NCBI GenBank assembly: GCA_022709365.1
Contig: JAKLIY010000006.1
Coordinates: 1-64,000, forward strand
Direction of reading: 5' to 3'
DNA from: Pseudomonadota bacterium
Lineage (GTDB): Bacteria; Pseudomonadota; Gammaproteobacteria; Competibacterales; Competibacteraceae
Length of the DNA: 64,000 nt
Shown here: piece by piece, positions 45,787-62,077 of the stretch
How the letters are laid out: every line of letters begins with the position of its first letter
Position numbering within the stretch: position 1 is the stretch's first letter
Made by a program: the position numbers and the translations under genes
Notes under the pieces: model-generated
The model's database searches: none
Told to the model about the DNA's origin: nothing
The model's input: only the letters and a program-made list of their open reading frames with translations

Positions 45787-46434
45787 ATGCGATTGATTCT
45801 GTTGGGCGCCCCGGGCGCAGGCAAGGGTACGGTGGCCAAGCTGTTGACCCAGGTGGACGGCTCGGTGCAAATTTCTACCGGCGACATCCTGCGCGGCGCA
45901 GTGCAGGCCGGCACCGCACTCGGCAAAAAGGCGGAAGCCTTTATGAAAGCCGGCGATCTGGTGCCCGATGACCTGATCATGGGCATCATGGAAACGCGCT
46001 TGCAGGAACCGGATTGCGCCAAGGGCTTTTTGCTGGATGGCTTCCCGCGCACCATTCCCCAGGCCGAGGCGCTCAAGGCGCTATTGGCCAAGCTGGGCAT
46101 CAAGCTGGACGTGGTGGCGAATATCGAAGTCCCCCGCCAGGAAATCCTCAACCGCCTCACCACTCGCCGCACCTGCGTGAATACCGAGTGTCAGGCGATC
46201 TACAACGTCCGCAGCCAGCCGCCCAAAGTCGAGGGGGTGTGCGACAAATGCGGCAGTCCCATCGTACAGCGCGATGATGAAACCGAGGAAGCCATCAGCA
46301 AGCGGCTCGATACCTACGACGAGAAAACCTCTCCGCTGATCGAGTTCTACCGTAAGGAAGGGTTGTTGCTGGTGGTGGACTCCCCCAGCAGCGAGGGCGT
46401 AGTCGCTGCGATCACGGCACGAGTCAGCGGCTGA
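45787..46434 (+). CDS. adk: adenylate kinase with zinc-type lid
   Basis: Makes 2 ADP from AMP and ATP. 215 residues, with P-loop GAPGAGKGT (7-15), AMP-site ISTGDILR and DGFPRT. The lid carries four cysteines, C130, C135, C152 and C155, as in zinc-binding adenylate kinases of Gram-positive bacteria and some Proteobacteria; E. coli Adk lacks them. The first pair is spaced by four residues rather than two. GAGGAAAA precedes the ATG at 45787. Confidence 0.96.
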   Translation: MRLILLGAPGAGKGTVAKLLTQVDGSVQISTGDILRGAVQAGTALGKKAEAFMKAGDLVPDDLIMGIMETRLQEPDCAKGFLLDGFPRTIPQAEALKALLAKLGIKLDVVANIEVPRQEILNRLTTRRTCVNTECQAIYNVRSQPPKVEGVCDKCGSPIVQRDDETEEAISKRLDTYDEKTSPLIEFYRKEGLLLVVDSPSSEGVVAAITARVSG

Positions 46435-46497
46435 TTGTGCAAAATCCCTCCGATCTCCGGGCAATGGGGATCGGGGATCGACTGAATTTCTAATCGT

Positions 46498-46672
46498 AAC
46501 TACTCAGCGCTCCCCGTCTGAATCACGGATTCACCGGATGACACAGATTTCACGGATGAAAACCTGCCGTGCAATCCGTTAATCTGTTAATCCGTGATTC
46601 AGACATGAACTATTCCTGTCTAGCTCCCTGGCTTTGGCATGGGCACGAGATTCAAAGGGGTGCTGAGTAGTT
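46498..46672. mobile_element. nested inverted-repeat element, MITE-like
   Basis: In the 311-base gap between adk and the methyltransferase gene two inverted repeats are nested. The outer pair is AACTACTCAGCGCTCCCC (46498-46515) against GGGGTGCTGAGTAGTT (46657-46672), imperfect by a two-base deletion. The inner pair is a perfect 16-bp repeat, 46516-46531 against 46589-46604. There is no ORF. Size and layout suggest a miniature transposable element or folded repeat. No target duplication was identified with certainty. Confidence 0.6.
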
Positions 46673-46745
46673 CCTTTGATCAAAGCTGACATTGCCGAAA
46701 CAGGCGTGATCTTCTTGTGCCGCACTTAAATCAGGGAATCCCTTC

Positions 46746-49700
46746 ATGCCGCTGGCTACCATGCCCTTTGTTTCCCTGCTGACCGCCTTCGCCGCCGATT
46801 TGACGGCTAAATTCGCCACGCCTCTGCATTTTAACCCCGAAGATCAGTTGAAAGCGCCGATGTTGACCCTGTTGAAGGGGACAGCGGCGGCGCTGGGGCT
46901 GACCGTGGAAGTGCTGACCGAGGTGCAGGATCGCGAGCGTTCCGGGCGGCCGGATATCGGCGTGGTCGCGCAGGCGCTGTTGGCTGGATATGTGGAATTG
47001 AAAGCGCCAGGTAAAGGCGCTGATCCAGCCCAATTCAAAGCGCAGGATCGGGCGCAGTGGGAGAAATTCCGCGACCTGCCGAACCTGATCTATACCGACG
47101 GCCATCAGTGGGCGTTGTATCGCAATGGCGAACGGGTCGGGCGGCTGATTCGACTGGCGGGCGATGTAACGACGGAGGGTGCCAAGGCAGTCAGTGAAGC
47201 TGATGCGGCAGCGGTGTTGGCGCTGTTGCGGGATTTTCTGTTCTGGCAGCCGACGGCCCCGGCGACGCCTCGCGCTTTGGCCGAAACCCTGGCCCCATTG
47301 TGTCGGTTACTGCGCGCCGAGGTGCTGGTGGCGGTGCAGAATCCCGATTCCGGTCTGGCCTCGCTGGCGGTGGACTGGCGGCATTACTTGTTTCCCGACG
47401 CCGATGATGCGCAGTTCGCCGATGCCTACGCGCAAACCTTGACCTATGCGCTGTTGCTGGCCCGCTGGTCCGGCGCGGTGGAATTGTCCACCACGCAGGC
47501 GACGAAAACCCTGCGTCCGCAACACGGCTTGCTGGCTGAGGCGCTGAAAATCCTGGCCGATGAGCAGGCGCGGACCGAGATCGAAACGCCGGCCAAGGTG
47601 CTGGAGCGGGTGATTGGCGCAGTGGACCCGGCGGCGCTGGCGAGTCAGTGGGTGGGCGGCGACCCCTGGTTGTATTTCTATGAGGATTTTCTGGCGGTCT
47701 ATGACCCGAAAATGCGCAAGGATCGCGGCGTTTACTACACGCCGGTTCCGGTCGTCCGGGCGCAAATTGCGCTCATCGGCGAACTGCTGGAAAGCCGGTT
47801 CCATGCGGAATTTTCCTTTGTCGATCCGAACGTGGTCACGCTCGATCCAGCGGCGGGCACCGGCACCTACATTCTTGCAGCGCTGGATCATGCGTTGGAA
47901 CGGGTGGCGGCGACCCAAGGGCCAGGAATGCGGGCGCAGGCGGCGACGATTGGGGCGCGTAATCTCCATGCGTTTGAGATTCTGGTGGGGCCGTATGCGG
48001 TCGCCCATTTACGGTTGAGTCAGCGCGTGTTGGCGGAAGGCGGAACCCTGCCCGCAGACGGCGCGCACGTTTATCTCACCGATACCCTGGAGCCACCGAC
48101 ATCCACGCCGCCGGGACATTTGCCGTTAGCGTATCGGGCGTTGGGTGAGGAACATCGGCGAGCGCAGAAGGTGAAGGCCGACACGGCGGTTCTGGTGTGT
48201 CTAGGCAATCCGCCGTATGACCGGCAAGTATTGGACGCCGGGAATCACGGGCAAACGCGCAAGGGTGGCTGGATTCGTTATGGCGACGCGCATCAAGAAG
48301 GCGCGGGTTTGCTCAAGGATTTTATCGCGCCGTTGAATGCGCTCGGTTTGGGCGTTCACGCCAAGAATCTCTACAACGATTACGTCTATTTCTGGCGCTG
48401 GGCGTTGTGGAAAGTGTTTGAGAGCCAGTCCGGGCCGGGCGTCATCGGTTTTATTACCGCTTCTTCCTATTTGGCGGGTCCGGGATTCGCCGGAATGCGT
48501 CAACTCATGCGCCGGACGCTCGATGAACTGTGGATCATTGATCTGGAAGGCGACAATCTGGGGGCGCGGAAAACCGAGAACGTGTTTGCGATTCAAACCC
48601 CGGTGGCTATTGCCATTGGCGTTCGTTATGCCGAGCCGCAACCGGACACGCCAGCGACCGTGCGTTATACCCGCGTTGAAGGTTCGCAAACCGCTAAATT
48701 GGAGCGGTTGAGTCAGGTGCGATGCTTTGCTGATTTGCCGTGGAAAGAGGGGCCGACGGATTGGAACTTGCCCTTTTTACCGGTGACCGGCAGCGTTTAT
48801 TTCCGTTGGCCGTTAGTGACGGATATTTTCCCGTGGCAGGAAAACGGGGTGCAGTTCAAACGCAGTTGGCCGATTGGCGAAACGGTCGAAGTGCTGGAAC
48901 AACGCTGGCGGGCATTGTTGATGGCCAAAGACCGTAAGGCCGCATTTAAGGAAACCCGCGACCGTAAAATCACCGGCAGCTATCCCAGCGTGGGCGATAA
49001 AGAGACCCGCTTAACACCATTGGTCCGTCTTGAACCCAACGCGCCCATGCCTGAGCTTAGCCGCTATGCTTTTCGCAGCTTTGACCGGAGGCTCGCCATC
49101 CTGGATAACCGCTTATGCGACCGGATACGCCCTGATCTGTACTACTCCTATGCCTATCGTAGTTTTGATCGGCGGTTTGCCTTGTTTGATAACCGACTCA
49201 GCGATTATCTGCGTCCAAGCCTGCATCGCGCTTACGGCGACCAGCAGATTTTCATGACCAGTCTGCTGACGGCTGTTTTGGGAGAAGGCCCAGCGGCAGT
49301 CGCTACAGCACTCATTCCTGATTTGCACCATTTCTGCAATCGAGGCGCAAAGGATGTGATTCCCCTTTGGCGGGATACCGCCGCGACGCAGGCCAATATC
49401 ACGAGCGGCCTGTTAGAGTTTCTAAGCGAACGCTATCCTCCCACTCCAGATCTTCCCCGCACGGGGGGAGGGAGTCTTTGCCCTGAAGACCTGTTTGCCT
49501 ACGCTTACGCTCTGCTGGCGACGCCCAACTACGTCAAGACTTTCTGGGATGAATTGGCGTTGCCCGGCCCACGTTTGCCATTAACCCAGGACGCCGCGTT
49601 ATTTGCCGAAGGCGCGGCGCTGGGTCGGCGGTTAATCTGGCTACACACCTACGGCGAACGCTTTGTTCCGCTAGGTGAAAAAGCGGGCCGCATTCCGTCG

Positions 49701-50135
49701 GGCGTGGCCCGTTGCCAAATTGGAACCCCCGCAGACCCAGCGGGCTATCCCGACCGCTTCCATTACGATCCCGCGACTCAGGAACTGCATATCGGCAAAG
49801 GCGTATTTGCCCCGGTGCGGCGCGAAGTCTGGAGTTTCAGCCTGTCCGGCTTCGAGGTGGTGAAATCCTGGCTGGCCTATCGAATGCGCGACCGCTCCGG
49901 CAAGAAATCCTCGCCGCTGGACGACATTCGCCCGGAGCGCTGGATTTTCGACGGGGAGCTGCTAAACCTGTTGTGGGTGCTGGATCACACCGTCGATTTA
50001 CAACCGACGCTGGCGGCGCTGCTGGAAAAAGTGCTGGCCAGTGAGTTGTTCACGGCGGCGGAATTGCCCCAACCGGATGAGGCGCAACGCCGGGCCATAG
50101 TGGAAAAAGCGGAGAAAACGGAGTTGTTTAATTGA
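46746..50135 (+). CDS. single-chain restriction-modification enzyme, ISP-like C-terminus
   Basis: A 1129-residue protein combining restriction and N6-adenine methylation. A PD-(D/E)XK-like nuclease lies near the N-terminus (PD at 69-70, E84-L-K86). The methyltransferase has motif I DPAAGTGTYIL (367-377) and motif IV NPPY (488-491). The C-terminal region (WLAYRMRDRSGKKSSPL) matches the specificity domain of Type ISP enzymes. Helicase motifs, present in true ISP enzymes, are missing, so the layout is Type IIG/IIL-like. No separate methylase or specificity gene is near. Residues 774-829 contain a tandem duplication. Recognition site unknown. Confidence 0.8.
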   Translation: MPLATMPFVSLLTAFAADLTAKFATPLHFNPEDQLKAPMLTLLKGTAAALGLTVEVLTEVQDRERSGRPDIGVVAQALLAGYVELKAPGKGADPAQFKAQDRAQWEKFRDLPNLIYTDGHQWALYRNGERVGRLIRLAGDVTTEGAKAVSEADAAAVLALLRDFLFWQPTAPATPRALAETLAPLCRLLRAEVLVAVQNPDSGLASLAVDWRHYLFPDADDAQFADAYAQTLTYALLLARWSGAVELSTTQATKTLRPQHGLLAEALKILADEQARTEIETPAKVLERVIGAVDPAALASQWVGGDPWLYFYEDFLAVYDPKMRKDRGVYYTPVPVVRAQIALIGELLESRFHAEFSFVDPNVVTLDPAAGTGTYILAALDHALERVAATQGPGMRAQAATIGARNLHAFEILVGPYAVAHLRLSQRVLAEGGTLPADGAHVYLTDTLEPPTSTPPGHLPLAYRALGEEHRRAQKVKADTAVLVCLGNPPYDRQVLDAGNHGQTRKGGWIRYGDAHQEGAGLLKDFIAPLNALGLGVHAKNLYNDYVYFWRWALWKVFESQSGPGVIGFITASSYLAGPGFAGMRQLMRRTLDELWIIDLEGDNLGARKTENVFAIQTPVAIAIGVRYAEPQPDTPATVRYTRVEGSQTAKLERLSQVRCFADLPWKEGPTDWNLPFLPVTGSVYFRWPLVTDIFPWQENGVQFKRSWPIGETVEVLEQRWRALLMAKDRKAAFKETRDRKITGSYPSVGDKETRLTPLVRLEPNAPMPELSRYAFRSFDRRLAILDNRLCDRIRPDLYYSYAYRSFDRRFALFDNRLSDYLRPSLHRAYGDQQIFMTSLLTAVLGEGPAAVATALIPDLHHFCNRGAKDVIPLWRDTAATQANITSGLLEFLSERYPPTPDLPRTGGGSLCPEDLFAYAYALLATPNYVKTFWDELALPGPRLPLTQDAALFAEGAALGRRLIWLHTYGERFVPLGEKAGRIPSGVARCQIGTPADPAGYPDRFHYDPATQELHIGKGVFAPVRREVWSFSLSGFEVVKSWLAYRMRDRSGKKSSPLDDIRPERWIFDGELLNLLWVLDHTVDLQPTLAALLEKVLASELFTAAELPQPDEAQRRAIVEKAEKTELFN
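49065..49232 (+). repeat. 28-codon tandem duplication inside the restriction-modification gene
   Basis: Codons from 49065 (YAFRSFDRRLAILDNRL...) and from 49149 (YAYRSFDRRFALFDNRL...) are two 28-residue units in direct tandem, with about 17 of 28 residues identical. DNA has diverged more than the protein, so the duplication is not recent. The unit resembles the FD.R segment of the methyltransferase target-recognition region. Confidence 0.75.
49436..49480. repeat. possible degenerate palindromic repeat inside the coding region
   Basis: TCCCC (49454-49458), loop GCAC, GGGGGGA (49463-49469), flanked by CTCCC and GGGAG arms. It encodes an in-frame Pro/Gly-rich insert (PPTPDLPRTGGGS) and resembles the CCCCTCTCC repeat family elsewhere in the window, but is weakly conserved. 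Confidence 0.35.
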
Positions 50136-59881: not shown

Positions 59882-62077
59882 TTGATTCTGCGCATTGCGG
59901 TTCCCTCGCGCCTGTACCGGACCTTCGACTACCTGCCCCCGCCGGATTGCGATCCTGCAACTCTGCAACCGGGCATGCGGGTCCAGGTTCCTTTCGGGCG
60001 ACAACAGGTCGTTGGCTTCCTAGTGGAACTCGGCGCTGACACGGCGCTGGATATCGCCAGCCTGCGACCCGCGCTGGCGGTTCTCGACACCGAAGCGCTG
60101 CTGCCGCCGGATGTGCTGGCGCTGATCCAGTGGGCGCAGCGCTACTACCACCACCCGCCCGGCGAGGTGTTCACAACCGCCTTGCCGGTCCTGTTGCGCC
60201 AGGGCGAACCCGCTATCGCGCCTGCCTCTACCCCACTATGGCGTATCACCGCCGCTGGCCGGGCCGCACTCGCTGACGACAGTCTGCGCCGCGCCCCGGT
60301 GCAGTGGCGGATGCTGGACTATCTGGCGCAGTGCCCGGAAGGCGCTGAACCGGAAACCCTGCGTCCGGTCGTCAGCCACAGCGCCGCCACCCTGCGCACG
60401 TTACGGGACAAGGGCTGGGCGGAACAGAGCGCGGCCCTGGAAGGCGCTACTGCTTTTGCTCCTCACCCGCCGCCGGCGCTGAACGTGGCGCAGGCAGAGG
60501 CGGTCGCCGCAATGATCGCCGCGCTGGGCCGGTTTCAGGTGTTTCTGCTGGAAGGCGTTACCGGCAGCGGTAAAACCGAGGTTTACCTGCAAGTGATCGA
60601 AGCCGCGCTGGCCCAAGGCCGGCAAGCGCTGGTACTCACCCCGGAAATTGGCCTGACCCCGCAGTTGCTGGCCCGGTTCCGCGAACGGTTGCCGGGACCG
60701 CTGGCCGTGTCGCACTCCGGTCTCAGTGATGAAGAGCGGCTCAAGGCCTGGCTGATGGCCCGCGAGGGTCGCGCCCGAGTGGTGGTCGGCACCCGCTCCG
60801 CGGTCTTTGCGCCGCTGCAAGCGCCGGGCATTCTGATCATCGATGAAGAACACGATCCGTCTTTCAAGCAGCAGGACGGCTTTCGCTACCACGCCCGCGA
60901 TCTGGCCATTGTCCGGGGTCAGCAACTGGGCATCCCGGTCGTGCTCGGTTCCGCAACCCCGGCGCTGGAAAGCTGCCACAACGCCCAGCGCGGACGCTAC
61001 CAGTTGTTGTCCCTGCCGGAACGGGTGGGCGGTGGCGCGGAACCCCCGATTCATATTCTGGACGTGCGCCGTCAGCCGATGCGCGAGGGCCTGTCGCTGC
61101 CGTTGCTGGAACGCATCCGTGCCCATCTGGATCGGGATGAGCAAGTGCTGCTGTTTCTCAATCGGCGTGGGTTTTCCCCTGTTCTGCTCTGTCATGAATG
61201 CGGCTGGATCAGCCAATGTCGGCATTGCGACGCCCGCATGACCTTGCATCTGCGCCGCCAGCGCCTGATCTGCCACCATTGCGGCGATCAACGGGCGGTT
61301 GATACGGCCTGTCCGCAATGCGGCAGTGTGGATCTGCGCGGTCTGGGCCAGGGCACTGAACGGCTGGAAACCGCCCTCTGCCAGGAATTTCCCGAGGTCG
61401 GCCTCACCCGCATGGACCGTGACAGCACTCGCCGGCGTGGCAGTCTGGAAACTCTGCTGGCGGATATTCACACGGGTGGCCGTCGCTTGTTGATCGGCAC
61501 CCAGATGCTGGCCAAGGGTCATCACTTTCCCGATGTGACCCTAGTGGGCATTATCGACGCCGACCAGGGACTCTACGGCATTGACTTCCGTTCCAGTGAA
61601 CGAATGGCGCAACTGATCCTGCAAGTCGCCGGGCGGGCCGGGCGGGCGGAAAAACCGGGGACGGTGATCATACAGACCCATCATCCCGACCATCCTCTGC
61701 TCCGTACCCTGGTCTCGCGGGGCTATCCGGCCTTCGCTGCGGAAGCGCTGGCCGAACGACAAGCGGCTTTGTTGCCGCCCTTTGCCCACCAGGCCCTGCT
61801 GCGGGCTGAGGCGGTCGACCCGGAACGAGCGACCGCCTTTTTGAATGCCGCCCGAGCGTTGGCCGAACCGTTGGCGGACGGATTGGAAGTCCTGGGGCCG
61901 GCTCCCGCGCCGATGGAGCGCCGCGCCGGCCGTTATCGGGCGCATCTGCTGATGCAGGCCACACAACGCCAGGATTTACACCGCTTTCTCCATCGCTGGA
62001 CCGCGCTGTTATGGGCGGATCGCCAGGATCGCCAAGTGCGCTGGTCGCTGGACGTGGATCCGCTGGAGCTTTATTGA
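59882..62077 (+). CDS. priA: primosomal protein N' (replication restart helicase)
   Basis: Restarts stalled replication forks. 731 residues (E. coli 732). Walker A GVTGSGKTEVY, DEEHDPSFKQ box, and zinc ligands in CHECG, CRHC, CHHCG and CPQCG. It starts at a TTG (59882); no ATG/GTG start is available before residue 34, and the N-terminus ILRIAVPSRLYRTFDY fits the family. Located beside a repeat that supplies purines upstream. Confidence 0.95.
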   Translation: MILRIAVPSRLYRTFDYLPPPDCDPATLQPGMRVQVPFGRQQVVGFLVELGADTALDIASLRPALAVLDTEALLPPDVLALIQWAQRYYHHPPGEVFTTALPVLLRQGEPAIAPASTPLWRITAAGRAALADDSLRRAPVQWRMLDYLAQCPEGAEPETLRPVVSHSAATLRTLRDKGWAEQSAALEGATAFAPHPPPALNVAQAEAVAAMIAALGRFQVFLLEGVTGSGKTEVYLQVIEAALAQGRQALVLTPEIGLTPQLLARFRERLPGPLAVSHSGLSDEERLKAWLMAREGRARVVVGTRSAVFAPLQAPGILIIDEEHDPSFKQQDGFRYHARDLAIVRGQQLGIPVVLGSATPALESCHNAQRGRYQLLSLPERVGGGAEPPIHILDVRRQPMREGLSLPLLERIRAHLDRDEQVLLFLNRRGFSPVLLCHECGWISQCRHCDARMTLHLRRQRLICHHCGDQRAVDTACPQCGSVDLRGLGQGTERLETALCQEFPEVGLTRMDRDSTRRRGSLETLLADIHTGGRRLLIGTQMLAKGHHFPDVTLVGIIDADQGLYGIDFRSSERMAQLILQVAGRAGRAEKPGTVIIQTHHPDHPLLRTLVSRGYPAFAAEALAERQAALLPPFAHQALLRAEAVDPERATAFLNAARALAEPLADGLEVLGPAPAPMERRAGRYRAHLLMQATQRQDLHRFLHRWTALLWADRQDRQVRWSLDVDPLELY

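Follow-up and report, generated by a model that had tools for sequence, protein, structure and literature searches.

Between an adenylate kinase gene and a type IIG restriction-modification gene, the window (the whole 64,000-nucleotide stretch of Competibacteraceae DNA analysed here) carries a composite element in which one inverted repeat lies inside another (Table 1). The inner inverted repeat pairs 19 nt at 95% complementarity (46516-46534/46586-46604), its outer 16 bp perfectly (46516-46531/46589-46604), and its arm, GTCTGAATCACGGATT, is made of 9-11-bp units. The outer inverted repeat pairs 16 nt at 88% (46498-46513/46657-46672), and its arm begins two bases before the start given in the initial annotation (46496-46513/46657-46674). 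The nested layout described in that annotation, and its observation that the element holds no ORF, are both borne out; the element has no coding capacity. The restriction-modification gene starts 71 bp past the outer repeat.

Table 1. Coordinates of the composite element, its parts and the neighbouring genes in the window.
Feature	Position	Strand	Support
Composite element: outer inverted repeat, nested inner palindrome and right tail of ~57 bp	46496..46674	+	
Left outer terminal repeat, GTAACTACTCAGC	46496..46508	+	
Right outer terminal repeat, GCTGAGTAGTTCC; consensus GCTGAGTAGTYAC	46662..46674	-	
Inner 89-bp palindrome, the gene-less form of the GxxExxY-associated inverted repeat	46516..46604	.	
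Left arm of inner palindrome: terminus GTCTGAATC, then four 9-11-bp units, CACGGATT, ACCGGATG, ACACAGATT and TCACGGATG	46516..46558	+	
Right arm of inner palindrome: inverted copy, end AATCCGTGATTCAGAC	46566..46604	-	
Right tail of outer element, ATGAACTATTCC...GGCACGAGATTCAAAGGGG, kept across composite copies	46605..46661	+	
adk (adenylate kinase, PF00406), left neighbour	45787..46434	+	
Type IIG restriction-modification gene, right neighbour, outside the element	46746..50135	+	PADLOC PDLC03631, 1190 bits; PF18135

Folded as single-stranded DNA, the interval 46490-46680 reaches -43.9 kcal/mol, against -19.8 +/- 3.1 for shuffled sequences (z -7.8; 0 of 200 shuffles equally stable). The suggestion that the element carries the promoter of the downstream gene did not hold: there is no sigma-70-like site in 46400-46800, and the window copy shows neither a promoter nor a terminator signature; we therefore reject either role. 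We also reject a structured RNA, as no credible Rfam family lies near the element and the RNAalifold covariation term of the palindrome alignment is about zero. The arms hardly vary, which accounts for that value, so that the palindromy rests on the sequence itself and not on covariation.

A search of the window's own genome (4.16 Mb, 141 contigs) with the interval gave 46 BLAST matches, both orientations counted, with E values down to 1e-39. Because a palindrome matches both strands, these represent about 15-20 loci, a copy number that rests on BLAST matches. The multiple copies anticipated in the initial annotation thus exist, and five loci carry the outer sequence. The right tail of the outer element is found at C98, C24, C56, C65 and C104, and composite copies, with the inner palindrome in either orientation inside the outer element, at C24, C56, C65, C104 and C55. 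The inner palindrome occurs at least six times without the GTAACTACTCAGC outer repeat or with a different one (C59, C84, C35, C87 and two at C49), and among 30 genomes we found no outer sequence without the inner palindrome. The shared junctions fit a single nesting event with amplification of both layers after it. The outer layer at the window locus is a separate repeat; the inner palindrome lies inside this second, unrelated repeat with GTAACTACTCAGC ends, and both would then have multiplied together. Matches to the element occur in 9 of 59 relatives, with none on plasmids and none in E. coli. At C84:24190, at C35:34167 and at the contig ends C59 and C87, inner palindromes are enclosed by outer inverted repeats of another kind, CCTGTAAATTTTCCYGTGA ... 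TCACAGGAAAATTTACAGG (L016, L023 and L014/L015; C84 and C35 judged by eye).

For several copies the history of the site can be followed by joining the flanks and searching relatives with the joined sequence. In G005 the matches ran without a break through the C24 and C55 sites, and in G001, G002, G003 and G006 through the C65 site; those copies are therefore absent from those relatives, although exact breakpoints are uncertain because the flanking intergenic DNA has diverged. Multiple copies, together with matching sites that lack them, make this a dispersed element that has been gained, in agreement with the insertion proposed in the initial annotation. The argument rests on the C24, C65 and C55 copies, since the adk site in G005 is not a clean empty site: the element is absent there, but other DNA is present, along with short stretches resembling a remnant of the restriction gene. 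Candidate 8-bp target duplications flank only two composite copies (AAGGTTAC/AAGGTTGC and AAAAATTT/AAAAATTT) and are not confirmed by the empty sites; most composites, the window copy included, show none. The short stretches downstream of adk in G005 (L124) look like the beginning of the type IIG restriction gene in the window, as would be left by loss of the gene at that site.

The only PF13366 gene of the genome, C49:60771-61115, sits between two longer palindromes of the window type, at 60637-60753 and 61157-61273. Its product is a 126-aa GxxExxY protein (TIGR04256; PF13366, 127.6 bits) of the PD-(D/E)XK nuclease fold. The relative G029 has the same palindrome-gene-palindrome arrangement, and it shares an identical GxxExxY gene with a Candidatus Contendobacter record (L295). 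The inner palindrome of the window is the gene-less counterpart of the inverted repeats that frame GxxExxY genes, a relationship that was out of sight of the initial annotation. Among the 59 relatives, in what is a small sample, a PF13366 gene is present in 5 of the 9 with the palindrome and in 6 of the 50 without it (p 0.008). Four genomes, G019, G023, G009 and G024, have palindromes of the window type but no PF13366 gene; either the gene was lost from them, or palindromes have another driver or do not always need the gene. The C49:60637-61273 unit (L021, L060) stands between apparent type I restriction genes, as it does in G029, and at C49 the TGA stop codon of the upstream modification gene falls within the GTCTGA of the arm.

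Residues D72, E82, K84 and Q96 of the protein are conserved, and the presumed catalytic D72, E82 and K84 are invariant in 20 diverse members. An AlphaFold2 model (pLDDT 92) is confidently of the PD-(D/E)XK type; its best fold match is the Cas4-like protein SSO0001 (Z 10.9, 101 residues, rmsd 4.3), while archaeal Holliday-junction resolvases score Z 6-8 (Hjc 7.6), below the reliable range and where chance matches occur. By modelled fold and D...ExK motif the protein is a member of the PD-(D/E)XK superfamily with predicted nuclease activity. It has no sequence relative in the PDB, no PADLOC defence match and no phage copies.

Framing by inverted repeats extends across the gene family. At 54 PF13366 loci from the class and phylum concerned, the strongest inverted repeat formed between opposite flanks has a median score of 45, against 18 for mismatched flanks; a few of these loci have mis-set gene coordinates, with stops in the translation, which can only weaken the contrast. 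The arm sequences vary by locus (ACCACGGAGGCACGGAGG, ACGCAAAGGCGCAAAGG, AACCACGAAATACACGAAG, CCGCAGATTACGCAGATT, CACGGATT) and repeat a Y-R-C-R-R-A-K core, with units spaced 8-10 bp apart in 101 pairs where 5 are expected. Close relatives of the genome's own GxxExxY protein (65-92% identity; the 80 best of 573 matches) belong to Bacteroidota, Cyanobacteriota, Chloroflexota, Spirochaetota, Poribacteria, Calditrichota and others. A correctly oriented GTCTGAAYC lies within ~220 bp on at least one flank at 59 of 75 close-relative loci, compared with 23 of 259 control windows not matched for base composition (Fisher p 1e-31), and on both flanks at 29 of 75, compared with 1 of 259 of the same windows (Fisher p 3e-20). 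At these loci the flanking inverted-repeat score is 40 or more in 32% of cases and in 0% of shifted windows. Full hairpins stand on either side of the gene in, for example, an Oscillatoriales genome (L309) and a Spirochaete (L316).

The arms also vary with the protein that they accompany. On a tree of 97 proteins, arm class requires 17 changes, against 42.5 when shuffled (0 of 200 shuffles), and the GAG/AAG and GAT arm groups part at 100/93 support although phyla are mixed. Two genomes, G122 and G005, hold several GxxExxY genes that fall into different classes, and every gene is accompanied by the arm of its class. Near-copies and close relatives inflate the clustering of arm classes, which makes the deep split and the within-genome cases the stronger part of this evidence. 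Arm sequence thus goes with the protein lineage and not with the host, the pattern that recognition of the arms by GxxExxY would produce.

Arms are dispersed within genomes as well. When arms from 13 genomes were searched back against those genomes, we found 111 matches in G122, 77 in G103, 62 in G051 and 23 in G376, and among the matches listed nearly all were to the genome's own arms. Many of the dispersed arms form inverted pairs 140-290 bp apart with no gene between them. Most of the G122 hairpins that we inspected are nested, with an outer pair of the CACGAAGG type and an inner pair of the CCGCAGATT or ACAGGATT type, and thus nesting is not peculiar to the window; each of these three arm types is also found around GxxExxY genes of G122. 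Despite near-identical arms, most G122 copies have innermost loops that are unrelated to one another, and the solo hairpins of G122 and G103 show no target duplication above chance. Unrelated loops without such duplications are not what simple transposition of whole copies predicts.

The window element probably belongs, in our judgement, to a two-part system made up of an arm-framed GxxExxY gene and dispersed palindromes with the same arms, and is a non-autonomous copy that lacks the gene. Repeat and gene together look like a mobile system of a kind not described before, present in many bacterial phyla. The data above establish the association, the cognate pairing and the mobility. As for how it might operate, the repeated units suggest that several protein copies could bind side by side on an arm that GxxExxY would recognise. 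The protein may then cut the palindrome, perhaps extruded as a cruciform, and repair of the break would copy, move or invert the DNA bounded by the arms. The resemblance to resolvases makes cruciform cutting attractive, although as evidence it is weak. We advance more tentatively, as a possibility that we rate somewhat short of probable, that GxxExxY is the engine of a widespread and undescribed class of mobile elements. A lone PD-(D/E)XK nuclease, with no transposase or integrase, would spread palindromes through their iterated arms by cruciform or hairpin cutting and break repair, and nesting would result where GxxExxY proteins of different types share a genome and target each other's hairpins.

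We weighed three other explanations of the same observations. The palindromes may spread by some other means, whether an unrelated transposase or replication slippage with gene conversion, while GxxExxY merely hitch-hikes inside or between them. Such a passenger would sit well with palindromes that persist in genomes without the gene, with the unrelated loops of G122 and with eight Y1-transposase (PF01797) matches in the window's own genome; yet the contigs with those matches carry no inner copy, and a passenger's arms are not expected to follow the protein tree independently of host or to be conserved across phyla along with the gene. We consider this account unlikely. A RAYT partner in particular was rejected, as PF01797 genes are present but on other contigs. 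We regard as rather improbable an ordinary MITE, in which a DDE transposase encoded elsewhere would move a non-autonomous insertion sequence bounded by the GTAACTACTCAGC repeats, with the inner palindrome as its filling. Composite copies do share ends and tail as copies of one unit would, two of them have 8-bp duplication candidates, and matching sites in G005 lack composites. Against this, most composites, the window copy among them, have no duplication, a scan of the genome for the outer-end motif found no GTAACTACTCAGC-ended transposase gene, and the inner palindromes that lack the GTAACTACTCAGC repeat, or have another in its place, are hard to reconcile with mere filling. The initial annotation's MITE or foldback repeat therefore stands as a dispersed, gained repeat but not as a classical MITE with target duplications.

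It is also conceivable, though very unlikely in our view, that the arms serve as operators or as sites of RNA processing. In that case GxxExxY would be a toxin, a defence nuclease or an RNA-processing nuclease under its own control by way of the palindromes, and the copies scattered elsewhere would mark regulated genes or act as terminators. Iterated units resemble binding sites for multimers, the hairpins are strong, and copies lie near gene ends (as judged by open reading frames only). This reading is weakened by the window copy, with its lack of promoter and terminator signatures, and by the absence of compensatory pairing support in the alignment, of an Rfam family and of a defence match for the protein.

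Among known systems, REPINs are reported to be non-autonomous elements that RAYTs (REP-associated tyrosine transposases) duplicate (PMC8049555), and here too a gene and its cognate short palindromes occur with tens of gene-less inverted pairs dispersed in the same genome. The partner here, however, is a PF13366 protein of PD-(D/E)XK fold where theirs is a Y1/HUH tyrosine transposase, the arms are 30-45 bp long and composed of iterated 9-11-bp units, and the GxxExxY gene recurs in different phyla at 65-92% identity, in contrast to the vertical inheritance described for RAYTs. REP palindromes have a GTAG or CGTC tag at their foot (tags as named in PMC3733652); the arm here starts with GTCTGAATC and has no such tag. 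The system works like REPIN/RAYT but is not a member, because it has neither a Y1 transposase as partner nor the tags; a REPIN/RAYT-like partnership in which a PD-(D/E)XK nuclease replaces the Y1 transposase is the best reading. As in MITEs, the element has terminal inverted repeats, no coding capacity and multiple copies, and, as with insertion sequences, inverted repeats frame a gene whose gene-less relatives are dispersed and absent at matching sites; the differences are that the scan for the outer-end motif turned up no DDE transposase, that target duplications are not convincing, that the G122 loops are unrelated and that the arms are iterated and nested. In the intervening sequence of Coxiella 23S rRNA, which is sporadic and has no known transposase, a terminal inverted repeat with a 28-bp stem encloses a small ORF (PMC4990558). 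This sequence shares with our units the small ORF within an inverted repeat but is located in rRNA and removed by RNase III, and its ORF encodes S23p, of another protein family; PF05635 (S23) had no match in the window's genome, and control genomes gave none either. The Rpn (YhgA-like) recombination-promoting nucleases are a nuclease family linked with DNA mobilisation (PMC5350276), but belong to a different Pfam family, PF04754.

We found no description of such a system in the open-access literature, which, with the collections of proteins, RNAs and structures that we searched, is the measure of novelty used here. Genes annotated as GxxExxY are common in many phyla and have had no assigned function; cognate arms give the family a testable role. 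Many unexplained hairpins, and spurious reading frames close to the ends of genes, may owe their origin to arms that seed gene-less palindromes. Should the nuclease spread palindromes on its own, it would provide a route for moving DNA outside the DDE, HUH, serine and tyrosine enzymes.

The settings of individual GxxExxY units vary. In two genomes of different families (L107 in G103 and L110 in G051) a unit occupies the same place, between apparent trpE and trpG genes, and others lie between apparent nuoE and nuoF (L087) and annotated fabD and fabG (L294), in the same direction as the operon. At L094 (G011) an arm, GTCTGAACCGCAGATTGACGC..., is repeated head to tail several times beside the GxxExxY gene. 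On a Gemmatirosa plasmid (L290) the gene stands between two hairpins of GGACTGAAGAA units, an arm unlike those of the other classes.
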